From NCBI RefSeq assembly GCF_000768875.1, contig NZ_JRAO01000010.1, positions 64,759 through 128,758 of the forward strand: a DNA stretch of 64,000 nt, read 5' to 3'. The notes beneath the pieces were generated by a model. It had not been told where the DNA came from. It did not search any database and was given only the letters and a program-made list of their open reading frames with translations. The position numbers and the translations under genes were made by a program. Each line of letters starts with the position of its first letter. Position 1 is the stretch's first letter. Shown here in pieces: positions 6,285 through 60,425 of the stretch. Source of the DNA: Porphyromonas sp. COT-239 OH1446 (GTDB lineage Bacteria > Bacteroidota > Bacteroidia > Bacteroidales > Porphyromonadaceae).

Positions 6285-6405
6285 AGACTCAAATAGGATC
6301 GACAATGAGATCTAAGTAGGAGCTCGAGAGAAGTCCTATCTGAGCCTCGATCGAGAGCCTATTTGGATCTCAATCGAGGATCTATTGGGCCGCTCGGCTG
6401 AGCTC
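6285..6405. repeat. 23-base degenerate repeat array A (strand-switch, divergent)
   Basis: About five imperfect units lie in the 510-base gap between divergent genes. The first two are in the forward sense (AAATAGGATC..., AAGTAGGAGCTCGAG...). The following ones are in the reverse sense (GTCCTATCTGAGCCTCGAT, GCCTATTTGGATCTCAATCG). The rest of the gap (6123-6284 and 6406-6597) shows no gene or structure I can name. Confidence 0.7.
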
Positions 6406-6597
6406 CCCTCTAGAGCGTATCCGAGCCCCTATCGCCCCCTCGGGGCACAGTCCCCAAAGCGAATAGATGGAGCTCTACCCAAGTCTCTCCTCCTCACCGA
6501 GGCGATATGCCAACGATGAGGTTTGTCCCTTTGAGCTTTTTGGACTATTTTTGGGCATTAATTGTCTGTATAGCACTTTGTCAAACCACTTCATAGC

Positions 6598-13963: not shown

Positions 13964-14170
13964 CAACAATGCGGGCAAGATAGGCTGTAAAATCGAGCGT
14001 GCTGCACACGAGGCTCAGCAGAGAATCTTCATGTGCGGCACGAATAAGCAAGGGCTCTCGAGGGCCTCTATCACTTGCTCTGCTGTCTGATCTATGCGAT
14101 CTATTGATCGGCTTCGGCTAACTGGGGCTCTGCCCTTGCCGTCTCAGTCGCTCGACTAAGGCATGCCACT

Positions 14171-14365
14171 GAGGTCTCGATCGAGGCTCGCTTGAGGTGC
14201 TAGATAGGGCCTCGATAAAGACCTCTCTAGACACTCAATAGAGGTACAAGTAGAGCCTCGATCGAGGTATAGATAGGATCGAGGTGGAACTCCTACTTGG
14301 GTCTCACTTGCGATCCTATCTATACTTCAATTGTGGTCTAAGTAGGATCGAAATGGAGTGCCTCG
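14171..14365. repeat. 23-base degenerate repeat array B (strand-switch, divergent)
   Basis: About eight imperfect units lie in the 720-base gap between divergent kdsB and thyA. Orientation changes within the array: AGATAGGGCCTCGAT and AGATAGGATCGAGG are forward, while CTCCTACTTGGGTCTCA and GATCCTATCTATACTTCA are reverse. A frame spanning 14284-14643 starts inside this array and is not credible as a gene. The segments 13970-14170 and 14366-14500 hold nothing I recognise. Confidence 0.75.
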
Positions 14366-27067: not shown

Positions 27068-27339
27068 CGCTATTAGGTATGATGTGGTGTGGATGTCGTG
27101 TGCTCTGCCCAACCTCCCCATGAAGTCCATCCGTCGATCATCCGTGCCTCGACGAGAGAGTCGCTGAACACGAAGCGAATATAATCAAATCATCCCAAAC
27201 TAGACCCCTATATTCACCCCAAAGAATATGAGATCTCGCTGCAATATCATCCATATCTAGTCTACCCCCGCTGTGCGAACCCTCCCCCACTCCGATCAGA
27301 GGGCTAGTCTCTCCCGATCTCCTCACTACCCCCTCATCT

Positions 27340-27530
27340 AGATCCTATCCATAACCTCGACGAAGATCCTATCTAAGCCTCCATGGAGATCCTATTTAGA
27401 CCTCGATGGAGATCCTACTTGAGTCTCAACTGCAATCCTATTTGGGTCTCTACCGAGACCCTACTTAACCCTCTATTGAGATCACATCTATATCTTCACC
27501 CACGATCCTACTTGTAGCTCAATCGCATTC
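27340..27530. repeat. 23-base degenerate repeat array C (strand-switch, divergent)
   Basis: The clearest array in reverse orientation: about eight head-to-tail units such as GATCCTATCTAAGCCTCCAT, GATCCTATTTAGACCTCGAT and GATCCTACTTGAGTCTCAAC, with spacings of 22-24 bases. It occupies the 710-base gap between the receptor gene and pyrG. The remaining parts of the gap (27068-27339 and 27531-27640) contain no gene that I can support. Confidence 0.8.
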
Positions 27531-27647
27531 CCCCAGCGAGATCGACCAAGAGGGAGAGAGCCGATAGGACGACGAGGGACAAACGAAGCTAACAAGACCC
27601 TAAGCACAGGCGAACAAAGAGGGCGAAGAATTACCGAATAAAAAGCG

Positions 27648-33552: not shown

Positions 33553-33756
33553 CCTCGATCCTATACAGGAACCCGACTGAGCCCTCTCCGAGAGCTCGAA
33601 TGAGGGTCAATCGAGACCTCAAGTGAGGGTTCTCCGAGAACCCTATCTCGATCGAGATAGGGAAGCACGTGAGATCCAGGTAGGAGCTCAATAGAGATAT
33701 AAATAGGAGTTCGGCGGCGATCCTAATTGGGTTCCCATCGAGGCTCTATCGAGAGC
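33553..33756. repeat. 23-base degenerate repeat array D (strand-switch, convergent)
   Basis: About eight units, the most decayed of the six arrays, with mixed orientation: TCGATCCTATACAGG, AACCCTATCTCGATCGAGAT, AGGTAGGAGCTCAATAGAGAT, AAATAGGAGTTCGG, GATCCTAATTGGGTTC. It fills most of the gap between converging purF and hydE. Confidence 0.65.
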
Positions 33757-36636: not shown

Positions 36637-36750
36637 AAATTTTCTTGCGGAAGAAAATTTATTTCCTTGCGGAAGAAAATATTTTTTCTTGCGGAAGAAA
36701 ATAAATTTTCGTGCGCACGAAAATTTATTTCTCTGCGCACATAAATTTGC
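36637..36750. repeat. Tandem palindromes upstream of the hydrogenase gene
   Basis: Three near-identical dyads TTTTCTTGCGGAAGAAAA (first T of the second changed) are followed by a perfect palindrome TTTTCGTGCGCACGAAAA and a decayed fifth (TCTCTGCGCACATAAA). Centres are spaced about 21-25 bases apart and separated by AT-rich ATTTATTT-like linkers. They lie 265-380 bases upstream of the hydrogenase start, in a 560-base gap to the helicase gene. A separate inverted repeat, CTCATTTGCCCATAAATGAG, lies at about 36528-36547. Confidence 0.8.
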
Positions 36751-45619: not shown

Positions 45620-45849
45620 ATCATTTTTCTCTCCCCACATAGATCCTTCTCGAGGCAACGGTCTGATTATCCCCATGAAATGAGAGACTTTACCCCAGTG
45701 TTATAAAGGCCAACGAACGGAGAGATTCTCTACGCTCCCAGTAGGCTAATCTCCCTCGTTCCAAGGGCAGTTCATCATCGTAGAAACGACGAAGCCCTCC
45801 TCCCCTCACATACCACCTCGATAGCCTCACGAGCGAGAGACCGATAGAC

Positions 45850-45995
45850 CCTCAATGGAGGGGCTATCTAGAGGTGTCGTTGAGAACTAAATAGGATCGC
45901 CATCGAGGTATAAATAGGATCTCGATGGAGGTATAAATAGGAATGCAATGGAGATATAAGTAGGAATGCAAGTGAAGTGTAAAATAGGAGTAAAA
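45850..45995. repeat. 23-base degenerate repeat array E (strand-switch, divergent)
   Basis: The most regular array. Four head-to-tail units start at 45889, 45912, 45935 and 45958, exactly 23 bases apart: AAATAGGATCGCCATCGAGG, AAATAGGATCTCGATGGAGG, AAATAGGAATGCAATGGAG, AAGTAGGAATGCAAGTG, then AAATAGGAGT. Weaker units precede them from about 45850. It lies between the divergent lipoprotein operon and the phosphohexomutase gene. The stretch 45620-45849 holds nothing I recognise. Confidence 0.85.
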
Positions 45996-46179
45996 TTGGT
46001 CTCTAGCAAGGTTCGCCCGATAGGGACAGGAGGGAGGGTCAGCGACAGGTTGCCCCACATCGGCTGCCCTATCCGAGACAACTTCACCCGCCCCACCCTC
46101 TCACACAGCCCATTCAGAGGTCGAAATACCCCAAGCAATCTCAAGAGACAAAGCTCCGAGAGGGTGCGGAGAAAATGAT

Positions 46180-56964: not shown

Positions 56965-57065
56965 TAAGTAGGAGTGCAATGGAGAGTCAAATAGGAGCTC
57001 GATCGAGATCTAAATAGAAACTCGATCGAAGTCCTATCTAAGCCTCCGATGAGCTCTCGGTGGGG
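56965..57065. repeat. 23-base degenerate repeat array F (strand-switch, convergent)
   Basis: Three forward units start at 56966, 56989 and 57012, exactly 23 bases apart (AAGTAGGAGTGCAATGGAG, AAATAGGAGCTCGATCGAG, AAATAGAAACTCGATCGAAG). A reverse unit follows (GTCCTATCTAAGCCTCCGAT). It is flanked on both sides by terminators (56879 and 57136). Confidence 0.8.
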
Positions 57066-57135
57066 GCTCAACCGAATGCCCCATCATCCCTCACCTGCAC
57101 CCCTACCGAGACCTCAATCTGCCACCCGAAGTAAC

Positions 57136-57234: not shown

Positions 57235-59847
57235 TTAATAAGAATAATAAGGAGAAAGGATCCAATCTCTATTAGCCCTAAACCATGACAGTATCCTTCG
57301 GATCTCGGCATTTGTTTTTCCATTCCATGAATCGTTGCTAACATTAGAAGAAATAGTCATTAGTGCATCTGTCATAACATTAGGATTTTCTAGAGCAGTA
57401 CGCTCCCATCCCTGGAGGGTTGCCTGAATATTTGCTTCACTCATGCCACTCCCTCCGAATAACATCTCGATTTGGGCATTGTTAGGGAAGACCCAGCGTC
57501 CCAAATTCCTATTGAAAGCACTAGCAAAACGAAACATTCCGACCATTCTTTTAAGTTTAGAAACATTCCAACCGCTTATATCTCGATTGAAAGCTACAGC
57601 ACTCTCAAACATCGAATCAGCATTTTGTAGGCTAGATGTGTCCCATGCAGATATATCTCCATTAAATGCTCTTGCAGAGTTAAACATGGAACCCGCAAAC
57701 CTAACATTTTTAAACTTCTCCCCCCATAGAAGATCTTGATTGAAGCGAGTGGCCGACTTAAACATGCTGCTCATTTCGATTACATTGGAAATATTCCAAG
57801 CAGTTAAATTCTGATTGAAATTTGTTGCTTCCTCAAACATATAAGACATATATGTTACATTAGAGACATTCCAACCAGATATATCAGCATTGAAAGATGT
57901 TGCTCCCGAAAACATAGAAGCCATAGTTGTTACATTAGAGACATTCCAACCAGATATATTAGTATTGAAAGATGTTGCTCCCTTAAACATAGAAGACATA
58001 TCTGTTACATTAGAGACATTCCAACCAAATATATCAGCATTGAAAGATGTTGCTCCCTCAAACATAGAAGACATATTTTTTACATTAGAGACATTCCAAC
58101 TAGATATATTAGTATTGAAAGATGTTGCTCCCTGAAACATATTTTTCATCGAGACAACCGAAGACATATCCCATTCGTTGATATTCGGAGTACCAGTGAA
58201 ACGCTCAGCCCCAGCAAACATCGCATCTGCACACTTAAGATGTTTGAAATTAGGTTTGTCTTTCGCTGTTACTTCAAGCTCGGTTGCACGGACGAAACAA
58301 AGGGGACAAACCTTCTCTGAATCACTATAAATATGCCCTCCTGTTCCCCACTCATTGGAAGTACCCCAAAGAGTAACCTTCTTAATATCAGGATTTAAGG
58401 ATCCATAAGAACTATAATCCGTCCAGTCAACCAAAGAAAAATAGCTCAGATTCTTCATCCAAATATCATAATCAGTATTGGCATCAAGCCCCGTAAGCTC
58501 CACCTTCTGAGGTTGAATTCGTTCGTCCCACTCACTCAATTTAGGCTCGTTAATCCTAAAAGGAGTCCAGGCACTAGAGGGGGAGTTGGACTTTCGGTAG
58601 TAGAACTTTGCCTTGTGCGTGCTGGCAATCTTTTCGTTATTACGGTTGTGGATACCAGCTGCGTAAAAAATGATTTTACCATCCGATCCTGTATTCCATT
58701 TCGTTTGGAAATACTTAGCCTTGTCTAGGGGAGCTTCCTCGATCTCGAAGTCTATGAATACCATCTTACCCTTACTCACCATGGGCTTCTTTTTCAGGTC
58801 ATAGGAGCGGACCTTGGGAGAAGCCCCTCCATCTTTCCTATAAGTAGCTTTAAAGTTGTAAGTGGGCTGCGTGGTCTCGATGGGAAGAGCCATCGTTATC
58901 GCACGGACATATCGTGAGGATGCCCCCTGGAAGACGTTCTGAAAGTCTTTCTTCAAAGCCTTAGAACTAGGAAGTACCCTGCAAACCGATCTAGGGGTGG
59001 TATTATCTATCCCCTTCATCGAAATCTTCGCTGAATGAGTGAACCCACCTGTTTCGAGCTGAACATGCTTGTAAGGAGCACTGCCTCCCATGTTTTCGGG
59101 GTCAGCAAATTCGATAACCAAAACAGTGCTCAGAAGCTCGAAGCGCAGATTGGTTTTGGGTGGGTTCGCGGAAGTCCTAGGCCCTACATGATCCTTAAGA
59201 TCGATCGGAGGCAAAACGAATACTAGGTTCGAGAAGTTATCAGTTCTTTTCTCATCATTCTTGAGTACGGAAAACTCTTTCGTCAAGTTAAGATCAAATG
59301 TTCCATCCTGCTCAAAGCTTGCGGGAATCGTATGGGCACTGTCTATTACCATCACTGAGACCTTAAACTCACTCAACACCCTTCCCTGGGGAATATTTAT
59401 ATTACTCTTAATAAATACCTTCGGAGCTTTTCCTGACCTTGGGGTTATATCGTACTCCTCTGGGCGCAGATGCTTAAACTTCTCCCAAACACCACCTGTA
59501 GGGCTAGGCTTATGATTGGCGTTAGAGATGGCTACGAGGATATGGGGTCTTTTGTTCTGTTCATGCCAGTCGCATCTAGACCAATCTCGCTCAGGCAGGT
59601 ACGAGGGATTATTGGGGGAGTGCCCCTCAAGACCTACACCAACCCTCGTTTCTTGCTCATCCTCCAGGGGTAAGGAAAGGCTTAGAGGGAGCCTAGCATC
59701 CCTCTTGAGGGGGGTTTTGCTCTTGATTAGCTCCTCTATATCCACATTGAGAGGCTCTGTTTTGTCTTTGCAAGCAGAGAGAGCAAGCAAACCAACGAAC
59801 AAATACAGGACATAACGTACTCGACATCGTATCAACGATATATTCAT
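57235..59847 (-). CDS. Fimbrillin/BspA-like repeat surface lipoprotein
   Basis: An 870-residue lipoprotein from the ATG at 59847 (MNISLIRCRVRYVLYLFVGLL, lipid Cys in LALSAC); a TTG upstream is less likely. Residues about 30-390 resemble the Bacteroidota fimbrillin-like fold (SKGKMVFIDFEIEE). A middle Fn3-like part follows, then about ten 25-residue units of BspA/DUF285 type (MSSMFKGATSFNTNISGWNV) from about residue 560 to 810. Such repeats are thought to mediate adhesion. The DNA is richer in A and T than the housekeeping genes. A small acidic peptide gene lies 39 bases upstream on the same strand and probably shares the transcript. Confidence 0.82.
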   Translation of the reverse strand: MNISLIRCRVRYVLYLFVGLLALSACKDKTEPLNVDIEELIKSKTPLKRDARLPLSLSLPLEDEQETRVGVGLEGHSPNNPSYLPERDWSRCDWHEQNKRPHILVAISNANHKPSPTGGVWEKFKHLRPEEYDITPRSGKAPKVFIKSNINIPQGRVLSEFKVSVMVIDSAHTIPASFEQDGTFDLNLTKEFSVLKNDEKRTDNFSNLVFVLPPIDLKDHVGPRTSANPPKTNLRFELLSTVLVIEFADPENMGGSAPYKHVQLETGGFTHSAKISMKGIDNTTPRSVCRVLPSSKALKKDFQNVFQGASSRYVRAITMALPIETTQPTYNFKATYRKDGGASPKVRSYDLKKKPMVSKGKMVFIDFEIEEAPLDKAKYFQTKWNTGSDGKIIFYAAGIHNRNNEKIASTHKAKFYYRKSNSPSSAWTPFRINEPKLSEWDERIQPQKVELTGLDANTDYDIWMKNLSYFSLVDWTDYSSYGSLNPDIKKVTLWGTSNEWGTGGHIYSDSEKVCPLCFVRATELEVTAKDKPNFKHLKCADAMFAGAERFTGTPNINEWDMSSVVSMKNMFQGATSFNTNISSWNVSNVKNMSSMFEGATSFNADIFGWNVSNVTDMSSMFKGATSFNTNISGWNVSNVTTMASMFSGATSFNADISGWNVSNVTYMSYMFEEATNFNQNLTAWNISNVIEMSSMFKSATRFNQDLLWGEKFKNVRFAGSMFNSARAFNGDISAWDTSSLQNADSMFESAVAFNRDISGWNVSKLKRMVGMFRFASAFNRNLGRWVFPNNAQIEMLFGGSGMSEANIQATLQGWERTALENPNVMTDALMTISSNVSNDSWNGKTNAEIRRILSWFRANRDWILSPYYSY
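57838..58135 (-). repeat. 75-base tandem repeats inside the BspA-like gene
   Basis: Four consecutive 75-base units are nearly identical at the DNA level (each contains ACATTCCAACCAGATATAT or a one-to-two-base variant and GCATTGAAAGATGTTGCTCC or GTATTGAAAG...). They encode the 25-residue motif. Units outside this core have diverged, so this part has been copied recently. Confidence 0.85.
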
Positions 59848-59886
59848 GTCTTTCTTTTCTAAGTTATTATACAATTCTACAGAGAG

Positions 59887-60197: not shown

Positions 60198-60425
60198 ATG
60201 GGGGGGGGGGGGGGGGGCAAGGGGGGGGGGGGTAAATTGGGAAACAAAAAATTCTGTGATAGAGCCAATTACAGCTCTATCTCCATTTCCTCTAAACAGA
60301 GTTTGAGGGCAGCTGGTATTCGCAGAATTGTGTTGCAAGGCTTACACCCGTTATCCAATTTAGTTGAGAATTTAATTCCTCGCCGCAAATTTAGATTATT
60401 TTCTCCAGGCAAACAAATCTTGTAA
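60198..60425 (+). other. Possible small frame opening in the poly-G tract
   Basis: An ATG formed at the front of the G tract opens a 75-codon frame: a poly-Gly start, then KLGNKKFCDRANYSSISISS and a basic second half (GIRRIVLQGLHPLSNLVENL, IPRRKFRLFSPGKQIL). The frame depends on the exact number of G. I do not recognise the product, and nothing else supports coding. The region could equally be an untranslated control region. Confidence 0.2.
60200..60232 (+). repeat. Extreme poly-G tract
   Basis: Eighteen G (60200-60217), CAA, then twelve G (60221-60232). On the minus strand this is poly-C, 128 bases ahead of the small peptide start. Tracts this long normally vary in length between cells, and their length in an assembly may be uncertain. 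Confidence 0.9.

Follow-up and report, generated by a model that had tools for sequence, protein, structure and literature searches.

The sequence of Porphyromonas sp. COT-239 OH1446 carries intergenic arrays of phased 23-bp palindromic units that recur evenly along the chromosome, roughly every 10 kb; the two arms of the palindrome do not covary, and relatives possess arrays built alike from other units. From these features we infer that a dimeric protein binds the arrays cooperatively and plays an architectural role, and we regard the chances as evenly balanced that such bound arrays organise the chromosome in ~10-kb steps. Altogether, the arrays hint at an undescribed segmentation of Porphyromonas chromosomes.

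The window, the whole 64-kb stretch of DNA analysed (G000:C2:64759-128758), is part of a source genome (G000) of 1,961,776 bases in 37 contigs, whose DnaG has its nearest named match, at 54%, in Porphyromonas sp. oral taxon 278. A 23-column profile with hits chained at 22-24 bp called exactly the six arrays of the original prediction and no more, and the reversed control gave none. These six, together with a minor array of a different family, are listed below.

6296..6434, minus strand: array 1, 6 units, chain score 88, between divergent genes for an alpha-2-macroglobulin (-) and a YfhO-like protein (+)
14155..14362, plus strand: array 2, 9 units, score 115, in the divergent gap between a cytidylyltransferase gene then dnaG (-) and thymidylate synthase (+)
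27305..27536, minus strand: array 3, 10 units, score 163, between divergent genes for an outer-membrane beta-barrel protein (-) and CTP synthase (+)
33563..33746, plus strand: array 4, 8 units, score 75 (the minimum in the window), in a convergent gap with a radical SAM gene at right
45819..46004, plus strand: array 5, 8 units, score 136, in a divergent gap with a phosphoglucomutase-family gene at right
56966..57080, plus strand: array 6, 5 units, score 81, between two convergent genes, one OmpH-like (+) and one of DUF285 (-)
36639..36730, no strand assigned: minor array of a different family, roughly four units of 22 bp that contain the palindrome TTTTCTTGCGGAAGAAAA

Array 3 is the site of the original observation. 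The TAGGA tags of array 2 run both ways, and the genes flanking the six arrays are of mixed function. The minor array lies 3.0 and 9.2 kb from the adjacent main arrays and is possibly an element equivalent to them. The window also contains tandem repeats of 75 bp and 150 bp (57780-58141) within a gene (57235-59874) with DUF285 matches, as well as a G run of 33 bases (60200-60232; 90% match to pure G) that is possibly a phase-variation tract.

The degenerate unit can be written as AAATAGGATCTC-N4-GAG-N4. In the profile of the source-genome arrays, its conserved parts are the TAGGA tag and the CTC-N4-GAG dyad, both of which had been predicted. The original prediction closed the unit with four variable bases; those four, after GAG, are partly conserved, and the most variable stretch of the unit, with little information, is the four bases inside the dyad. 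The units are symmetric sites sharing one consensus, and their dyad symmetry score was matched by 2 of 2,000 column permutations. The training set was the first 464 kb, comprising the window plus twenty segments of 20 kb each from contigs C2 and C23, and the same profile was applied to a hold-out of 397.6 kb (contigs C7, C20 and C37). The two sets contained 40 and 37 arrays, respectively, that is, 77 in 861.6 kb, while the reversed-sequence controls of both halves yielded no chain at a score of 20 or more. The sharp 23-base spacing that had been predicted was borne out across the 77 arrays, in which 433 steps between units were of 23 bp, 47 of 24 and 4 of 22. At 10.5 bp per turn, 23 bp corresponds to 2.19 turns, so that each unit is rotated by ~70 degrees relative to the one before it and the supposed alignment on a single helical face is only approximate. 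The arrays have a median length of 162 bp (range 69-370) and consist of 3-16 units. Extrapolation from the 861.6 kb puts the whole genome at an estimated ~175 arrays. That the unit family is genome-wide was also seen with a two-tag pattern, which gave 79 matches against 8 in the reversed control, and at least 261 model matches at E<=1 were obtained genome-wide with 150 of 1,596 first-look candidates scored.

Other repeats occur in the same genome at low copy number. The 22-bp palindromic family TTTTCTTGCGGAAGAAAA is rare, with two arrays per 861.6 kb, namely that at window 36639-36730 and one at G000:C37 ~19390. The latter has main arrays 10.4 and 9.8 kb on either side and lies at the mid-point of a 20-kb interval. 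A 22-bp array of AATAGTTATAACTATT was found at G000:C20:104969 between genes named by eye from their proteins as ahpC-like and ahpF-like, and a 45-bp tandem repeat adjoins a main array in a convergent gap (G000:C23 ~58278). No regulator candidate was noticed by eye among the neighbours of five minor arrays.

The main arrays are spaced more evenly than any of the null models produced. In the training set, the 37 spacings had a median of 10.4 kb, a CV of 0.43 and a minimum of 5.1 kb, with none of the 37 below 5 kb. Under the nulls, the mean CV was 0.95 for uniform placement and 0.74-0.81 for placement in gaps of the same orientation, and 9-13 spacings below 5 kb were expected, with about 10 for placement in gaps. 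The gap nulls were run both with and without a limit on gap length, and none of the 5,000 simulations per null type was as even as the training arrays. The hold-out gave 34 spacings with a median of 11.1 kb and a CV of 0.385. Only one of the 34, which separates the two weakest arrays, was below 5 kb, against expectations of 12.9 (uniform) and 9-11 (gaps), and neither the 10,000 uniform simulations nor the 5,000 gap simulations included one as even. Pooling the 71 spacings resulted in a median of 10.4 kb, a CV of 0.41 and an interquartile range of 8.4-13.3 kb, with 66 spacings within 5-20 kb and one below 5 kb; the density is one array per 11.2 kb. The longest array-free stretch (30.9 kb) holds ordinary genes, with signs of insertion absent among the 8 predicted proteins scanned, and the next (22.2 kb) is a low-GC capsule/O-antigen locus (9 predicted proteins scanned). 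An explanation of array-free stretches as insertions therefore fits at most one of the two, the capsule/O-antigen locus.

Genes were predicted by a simple hexamer/ORF finder, on which both the following counts and the gap nulls rest. None of the 77 arrays hit a substantial gene; two arrays have their midpoints inside predicted ORFs (186 and 201 bp) and were classed by their divergent neighbours, and one array shares 29 bp with a predicted gene start. Among the 76 arrays classified in 861.6 kb (the 77th lies at a contig edge), 34 were in divergent, 34 in co-directional and 8 in convergent gaps. The original prediction that every array sits at a switch of coding strand is right for the window and wrong for the genome: because of the 34 co-directional arrays, we regard the rule as a feature of the window only. 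Per gap, divergent gaps are preferred: 34 of 68 are occupied, compared with 34 of the 510 co-directional gaps and 8 of the 64 convergent ones. The co-directional arrays run with the genes in 14 cases and against them in 20. The arrays sit close to promoters. An outward TAnnTTTG box, which we take to be the Bacteroidetes -7 type promoter box, lies within 300 bp in 76 of 154 flanks and an inward box in 8 of 154. The distance between array and outward box is 50-199 bp for 59 of the 81 boxes.

A second Porphyromonas genome (G012; one contig, 2.18 Mb) carries arrays of an unrelated unit, GAGGGATATCCCTCA. When up to 2 mismatches are allowed, this unit has 346 forward matches, whereas the control has 6. 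We identified 42 arrays in 460 contiguous kb, or one per 10.95 kb, with exactly four units in 34 of the 42 and steps of 22 bp (128) or 23 bp (7). The occupied gaps comprised 16 of 26 divergent, 22 of 273 co-directional and 4 of 27 convergent ones. The evenness is weaker in this genome than in the source genome: the spacing CV was 0.67 (P 0.003 under the uniform null, 0.015-0.046 under the gap nulls), and 7 of 41 spacings were below 5 kb versus 15 under the uniform null. The four units differ by their position in the array. In 33 four-unit arrays, the left edge TAGGGGGAGG is conserved and is perhaps the site of a second protein; the right edge is weaker. A second family in G012, TTCTTATATTACTTTCG, was picked from two arrays seen beforehand and then searched with one pattern, which gave 13 arrays. 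Their mean distance to the closest main array is 7.1 kb versus 4.0-4.6 kb expected (P 0.002-0.009), the minimum is 3.3 kb (P 5e-5, gap null), and pooling both families lowers the CV to 0.55. Between G012 and the source genome, 7 of 133 orthologues adjoin an array in both versus 5.2 expected (P 0.41), and for 6 the array lies 5' of the gene in both genomes versus 2.3 expected (P 0.013), the latter confounded by long upstream gaps. In the Bacteroidaceae genome RUI437 (G061), CGCNAAGCACTTGGCG matched 224 forward sites against 3 in the control. Among the zero-mismatch matches listed, all 31 steps within clusters were of 22 or 44 bp, and the spacings ranged from 2.9 to 94 kb with a median of 12.6 kb. 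In 60 kb of this genome, four of the seven groups listed span four sites, and some had mirrored ends by eye.

Arrays of a similar build occur in related species, albeit not from the same unit. Under stricter filters, the 23-bp unit of the source genome was found in none of 25 same-genus genomes, and in 60 other genomes it had one weak match each in two (E 0.003-0.006); its exact pattern gave no hit in genome-contig and viral-contig collections, from which the records of the source itself were possibly excluded. On the other hand, sampling of nine further Porphyromonas genomes, and of one named locus, revealed intergenic arrays of different units, whose period is mostly 21-24 bp. With a sequence-blind detector, a lag of 21-24 or its double was found in 30 of 33 periodic regions of Porphyromonas relatives (761 kb), in 47 of 72 at other loci (1.24 Mb; 32 of 79 loci, nearly all Bacteroidales by title), in neither of two from other orders of the class (220 kb), and in both of two from other classes (180 kb), of which one is origin-region-like and one coding-like by eye. 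The shuffle control covers the Porphyromonas groups alone, where no shuffle passed, and the uncurated array calls of the wider survey of loci include some that are simple repeats or coding-like. Of the 77 arrays called de novo in relatives and in other Bacteroidales, 43 had a palindromic unit (P<=0.02) and 34 fell short of significance. Spacings between arrays of the same unit in loci of up to 20 kb (n=42) had a median of 5.4 kb, shorter than in the source genome, a value for which some families were counted repeatedly and from which the short loci remove long spacings. Arrays of 22-bp palindromes occur in the Porphyromonas genome G025. The palindrome AAACGTATACGTTT forms 22-bp arrays with differing neighbour genes in two Porphyromonas genomes (G000:C7:27337; G004, L228:16354), and some minor families are thus common to species.

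To account for these arrays, we propose that each is a row of operator-like sites with one dyad per 23 bp. Dimers of a putative protein would bind the dyads cooperatively, neighbours being coupled through the fixed 22-23 bp phase, and the bound array would become a short nucleoprotein filament of roughly 70-370 bp. The ~175 resulting intergenic complexes, ~10 kb apart and often upstream of outward-facing promoters, would segment the chromosome as loop anchors or supercoiling barriers. We advance more tentatively, with somewhat less than even confidence, the extension that Bacteroidales have a built-in partitioning system of about four to ten phased palindromic sites per ~10 kb. Its sequence would turn over as if co-evolving with the binding protein, the period of 21-24 bp and, in the two well-measured species, the density of one per 11 kb would stay constant, and different families in one genome would space out as if they did one job. 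Against the architectural reading we count the weaker evenness in G012, the 2.9-94 kb range in G061, the 5.4-kb median, the 34 of 77 units without significant palindromy, the signal at one arm pair (8-21), the signal of descent given below and the 30.9-kb array-free stretch of ordinary genes.

The main rival, owing to the promoter association, which fits gene regulation equally well, is that the arrays are upstream control regions (enhancers, silencers or insulators) of a global transcription regulator and that their even spacing is a by-product of regulon layout. We consider this rather unlikely. It would explain the preference for divergent gaps, the outward boxes and their distance from the arrays, and the excess of orthologues with 5'-side arrays, subject to the confounding noted above. 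On the other hand, the spacing is more even than when gaps of the same class are drawn at random, convergent gaps hold 8 of the 76 arrays, the window arrays neighbour genes of mixed function, and a regulon does not predict that the two unrelated G012 families avoid each other. A mobile origin, from a BrickBuilt-like MITE or from a REP/REPIN-like element that a Y1 transposase mobilises, appears improbable to us. No array boundary is conserved among the 77 arrays, and no terminal inverted repeats common to 40 arrays were found (in one of the 40, the two flanks share a 16-bp inverted repeat), in agreement with their reported absence in the original prediction. The BrickBuilt end repeat flanks both sides of none of the 77 arrays and occurs in 7 of 154 flanks versus ~7.5 expected; Y1 transposases number 0 in G000, 0 in G061 and 1 in G012; and insertion does not predict a minimum spacing. 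What speaks for mobility is the dispersal, intergenic location and high copy number of the arrays, the 23-nt unit of BrickBuilt, the near-constant four-unit length and conserved left edge in G012, and a weak signal of common descent. Nearest-array identity averages 0.739 in the source genome versus 0.683-0.693 after unit reassignment (0.798 versus a null of 0.765 in G012), the best four-unit array pairs of the source genome reach 0.93 and 0.91 (null maxima 0.76-0.83), and among 80 flanks of 40 arrays, 11 pairs match at E<=0.01, six of them among just four flanks.

We give very little credence to the arrays being rows of RNA hairpins that serve as terminators, attenuators or mRNA stabilisers. 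Two window arrays do fold beyond shuffles (z -1.8 to -4.1), but on both strands, as is expected from any dyad. The arms do not covary: 6 of 7 arm pairs in the source genome have z<1.5, the weak exception being pair 8-21 (z 3.3). In 167 units of G012, coupling is confined to the two central bases (TA or CG), 7 of 8 outer pairs are without signal and one is invariant, and two outer pairs form in fewer than half of the units. Furthermore, the co-directional arrays run in either direction relative to their genes (14 with, 20 against), convergent gaps are not preferred, and Rfam gave only tRNAs in the 140 kb scanned. The arm pattern would rather resemble independent half-sites of a dimeric protein than hairpins or cruciforms. 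Neutral minisatellites arising from replication slippage are similarly far-fetched in our judgement. Their tandem nature, the 46-bp period found in many arrays by a tandem-repeat finder and the identity of units two apart would suit slippage: in 40 arrays, unit identity is 0.606 at lag 1, 0.643 at lag 2 and 0.586 between arrays, and the lag-2 excess implies some 46-bp duplication and, together with the period, hints at a two-unit module. Nevertheless, local slippage would give far more similar neighbours than these (in G012, neighbours are at 0.623 versus 0.648 for other arrays), the phase is held though the units differ at ~40% of positions, a single consensus runs across the genome, and the spacing is even. 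Thus, arms without covariation, the lack of common ends and neighbouring units that are barely more alike disfavour RNA hairpins, MITEs and slippage. Of the ideas in the original prediction, an architectural protein or nucleoid anchor is the one that the ~10-kb even spacing, the independent arms and the like-built arrays of relatives appear to support best; the mobile-element remnant is disfavoured for want of common ends and with Y1 mostly absent, albeit a weak descent signal persists; the suggested BrickBuilt kinship is likewise disfavoured, and the strand-switch rule fails at the scale of the genome.

Tandem 22-23 bp repeats in Porphyromonas are already noted, and searches of the open-licence literature, outside which subscription papers and preprints largely lie, turned up no description of palindromic arrays set at even distances in Bacteroidales. 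New with respect to that literature are the even spacing, the wide occurrence with unrelated palindromes and the independence of the arms. Supercoil domains some 10 kb in size are known in bacteria, and we know of no fixed sequence that marks them. If the arrays are domain anchors, the domain structure of a bacterial chromosome would be readable from its sequence and testable by deletion. The arrays would then also exemplify fast sequence turnover at constant geometry, a bacterial parallel to satellite arrays and the proteins that bind them, in an order prominent in the human gut and mouth. If they are instead arrays of a regulator, this would be an undescribed one with an estimated 175 arrays per genome, which is still of value.

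Among known repeats, BrickBuilt shares with our arrays the genus, the 23-nt tandem period, the intergenic location and the variable number of units (PMC4596501). It consists of an imperfect tandem unit, AGAYCATARTATCCTCTCRTRTG, always intergenic, with IS5-type terminal inverted repeats, GAGACCTTTGCA, in a leader and a tail, and 19 copies are known in P. gingivalis ATCC 33277, both end repeats being kept in 4 of the 19 (PMC4596501). In its best rotation, AGAYCATARTATCCTCTCRTRTG agrees with the source-genome unit at 14 of 23 positions (P 0.09 against shuffled units), GAGACCTTTGCA occurs around our arrays at chance level, and neither the few matching flanks nor the array edges reveal a leader or a tail. 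We therefore reject identity with BrickBuilt, as the unit, the ends and the copy number (19 versus ~175 estimated) differ. Tandem repeats of 22, 23 and 41 nt are mentioned for P. gingivalis W83, in an excerpt that gives neither spacing data nor a wider survey (PMC4596501); the 22-nt repeats are probably relatives of the wider array phenomenon. Elsewhere, short repeats of 3-31 bp were left unannotated (PMC5771137). BldC, a regulator of Streptomyces development, forms cooperative multimers on direct repeats (PMC5859096), a parallel in which kinship is unsupported.

REP, BIME and REPIN elements are likewise extragenic palindromes dispersed in many copies; they carry GTAG or CGTC tags, form hairpins and have RAYT transposases, and a role in gyrase action and supercoiling is discussed for REPs (PMC3733652). 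The source-genome arrays are also of high copy number, dispersed and extragenic; in contrast to those elements, they are phased tandem dyads, evenly spaced, with arms that do not covary. Two of the three genomes lack a cognate Y1 (RAYT) transposase, and identity with REP/REPIN is disfavoured on this ground and on that of the missing compensatory changes in the arms. In their proposed role, the arrays would work like matS, Noc sites and parS, which are single sites of conserved sequence in restricted chromosomal regions. By analogy with them, a short palindromic site repeated round the chromosome would be bound by a dimeric protein. Like such organising sites, the arrays consist of symmetric sites with one consensus and are distributed non-randomly, in both parts of the source genome and more weakly in G012; unlike them, they are phased arrays set ~every 10 kb, with a sequence specific to the species.
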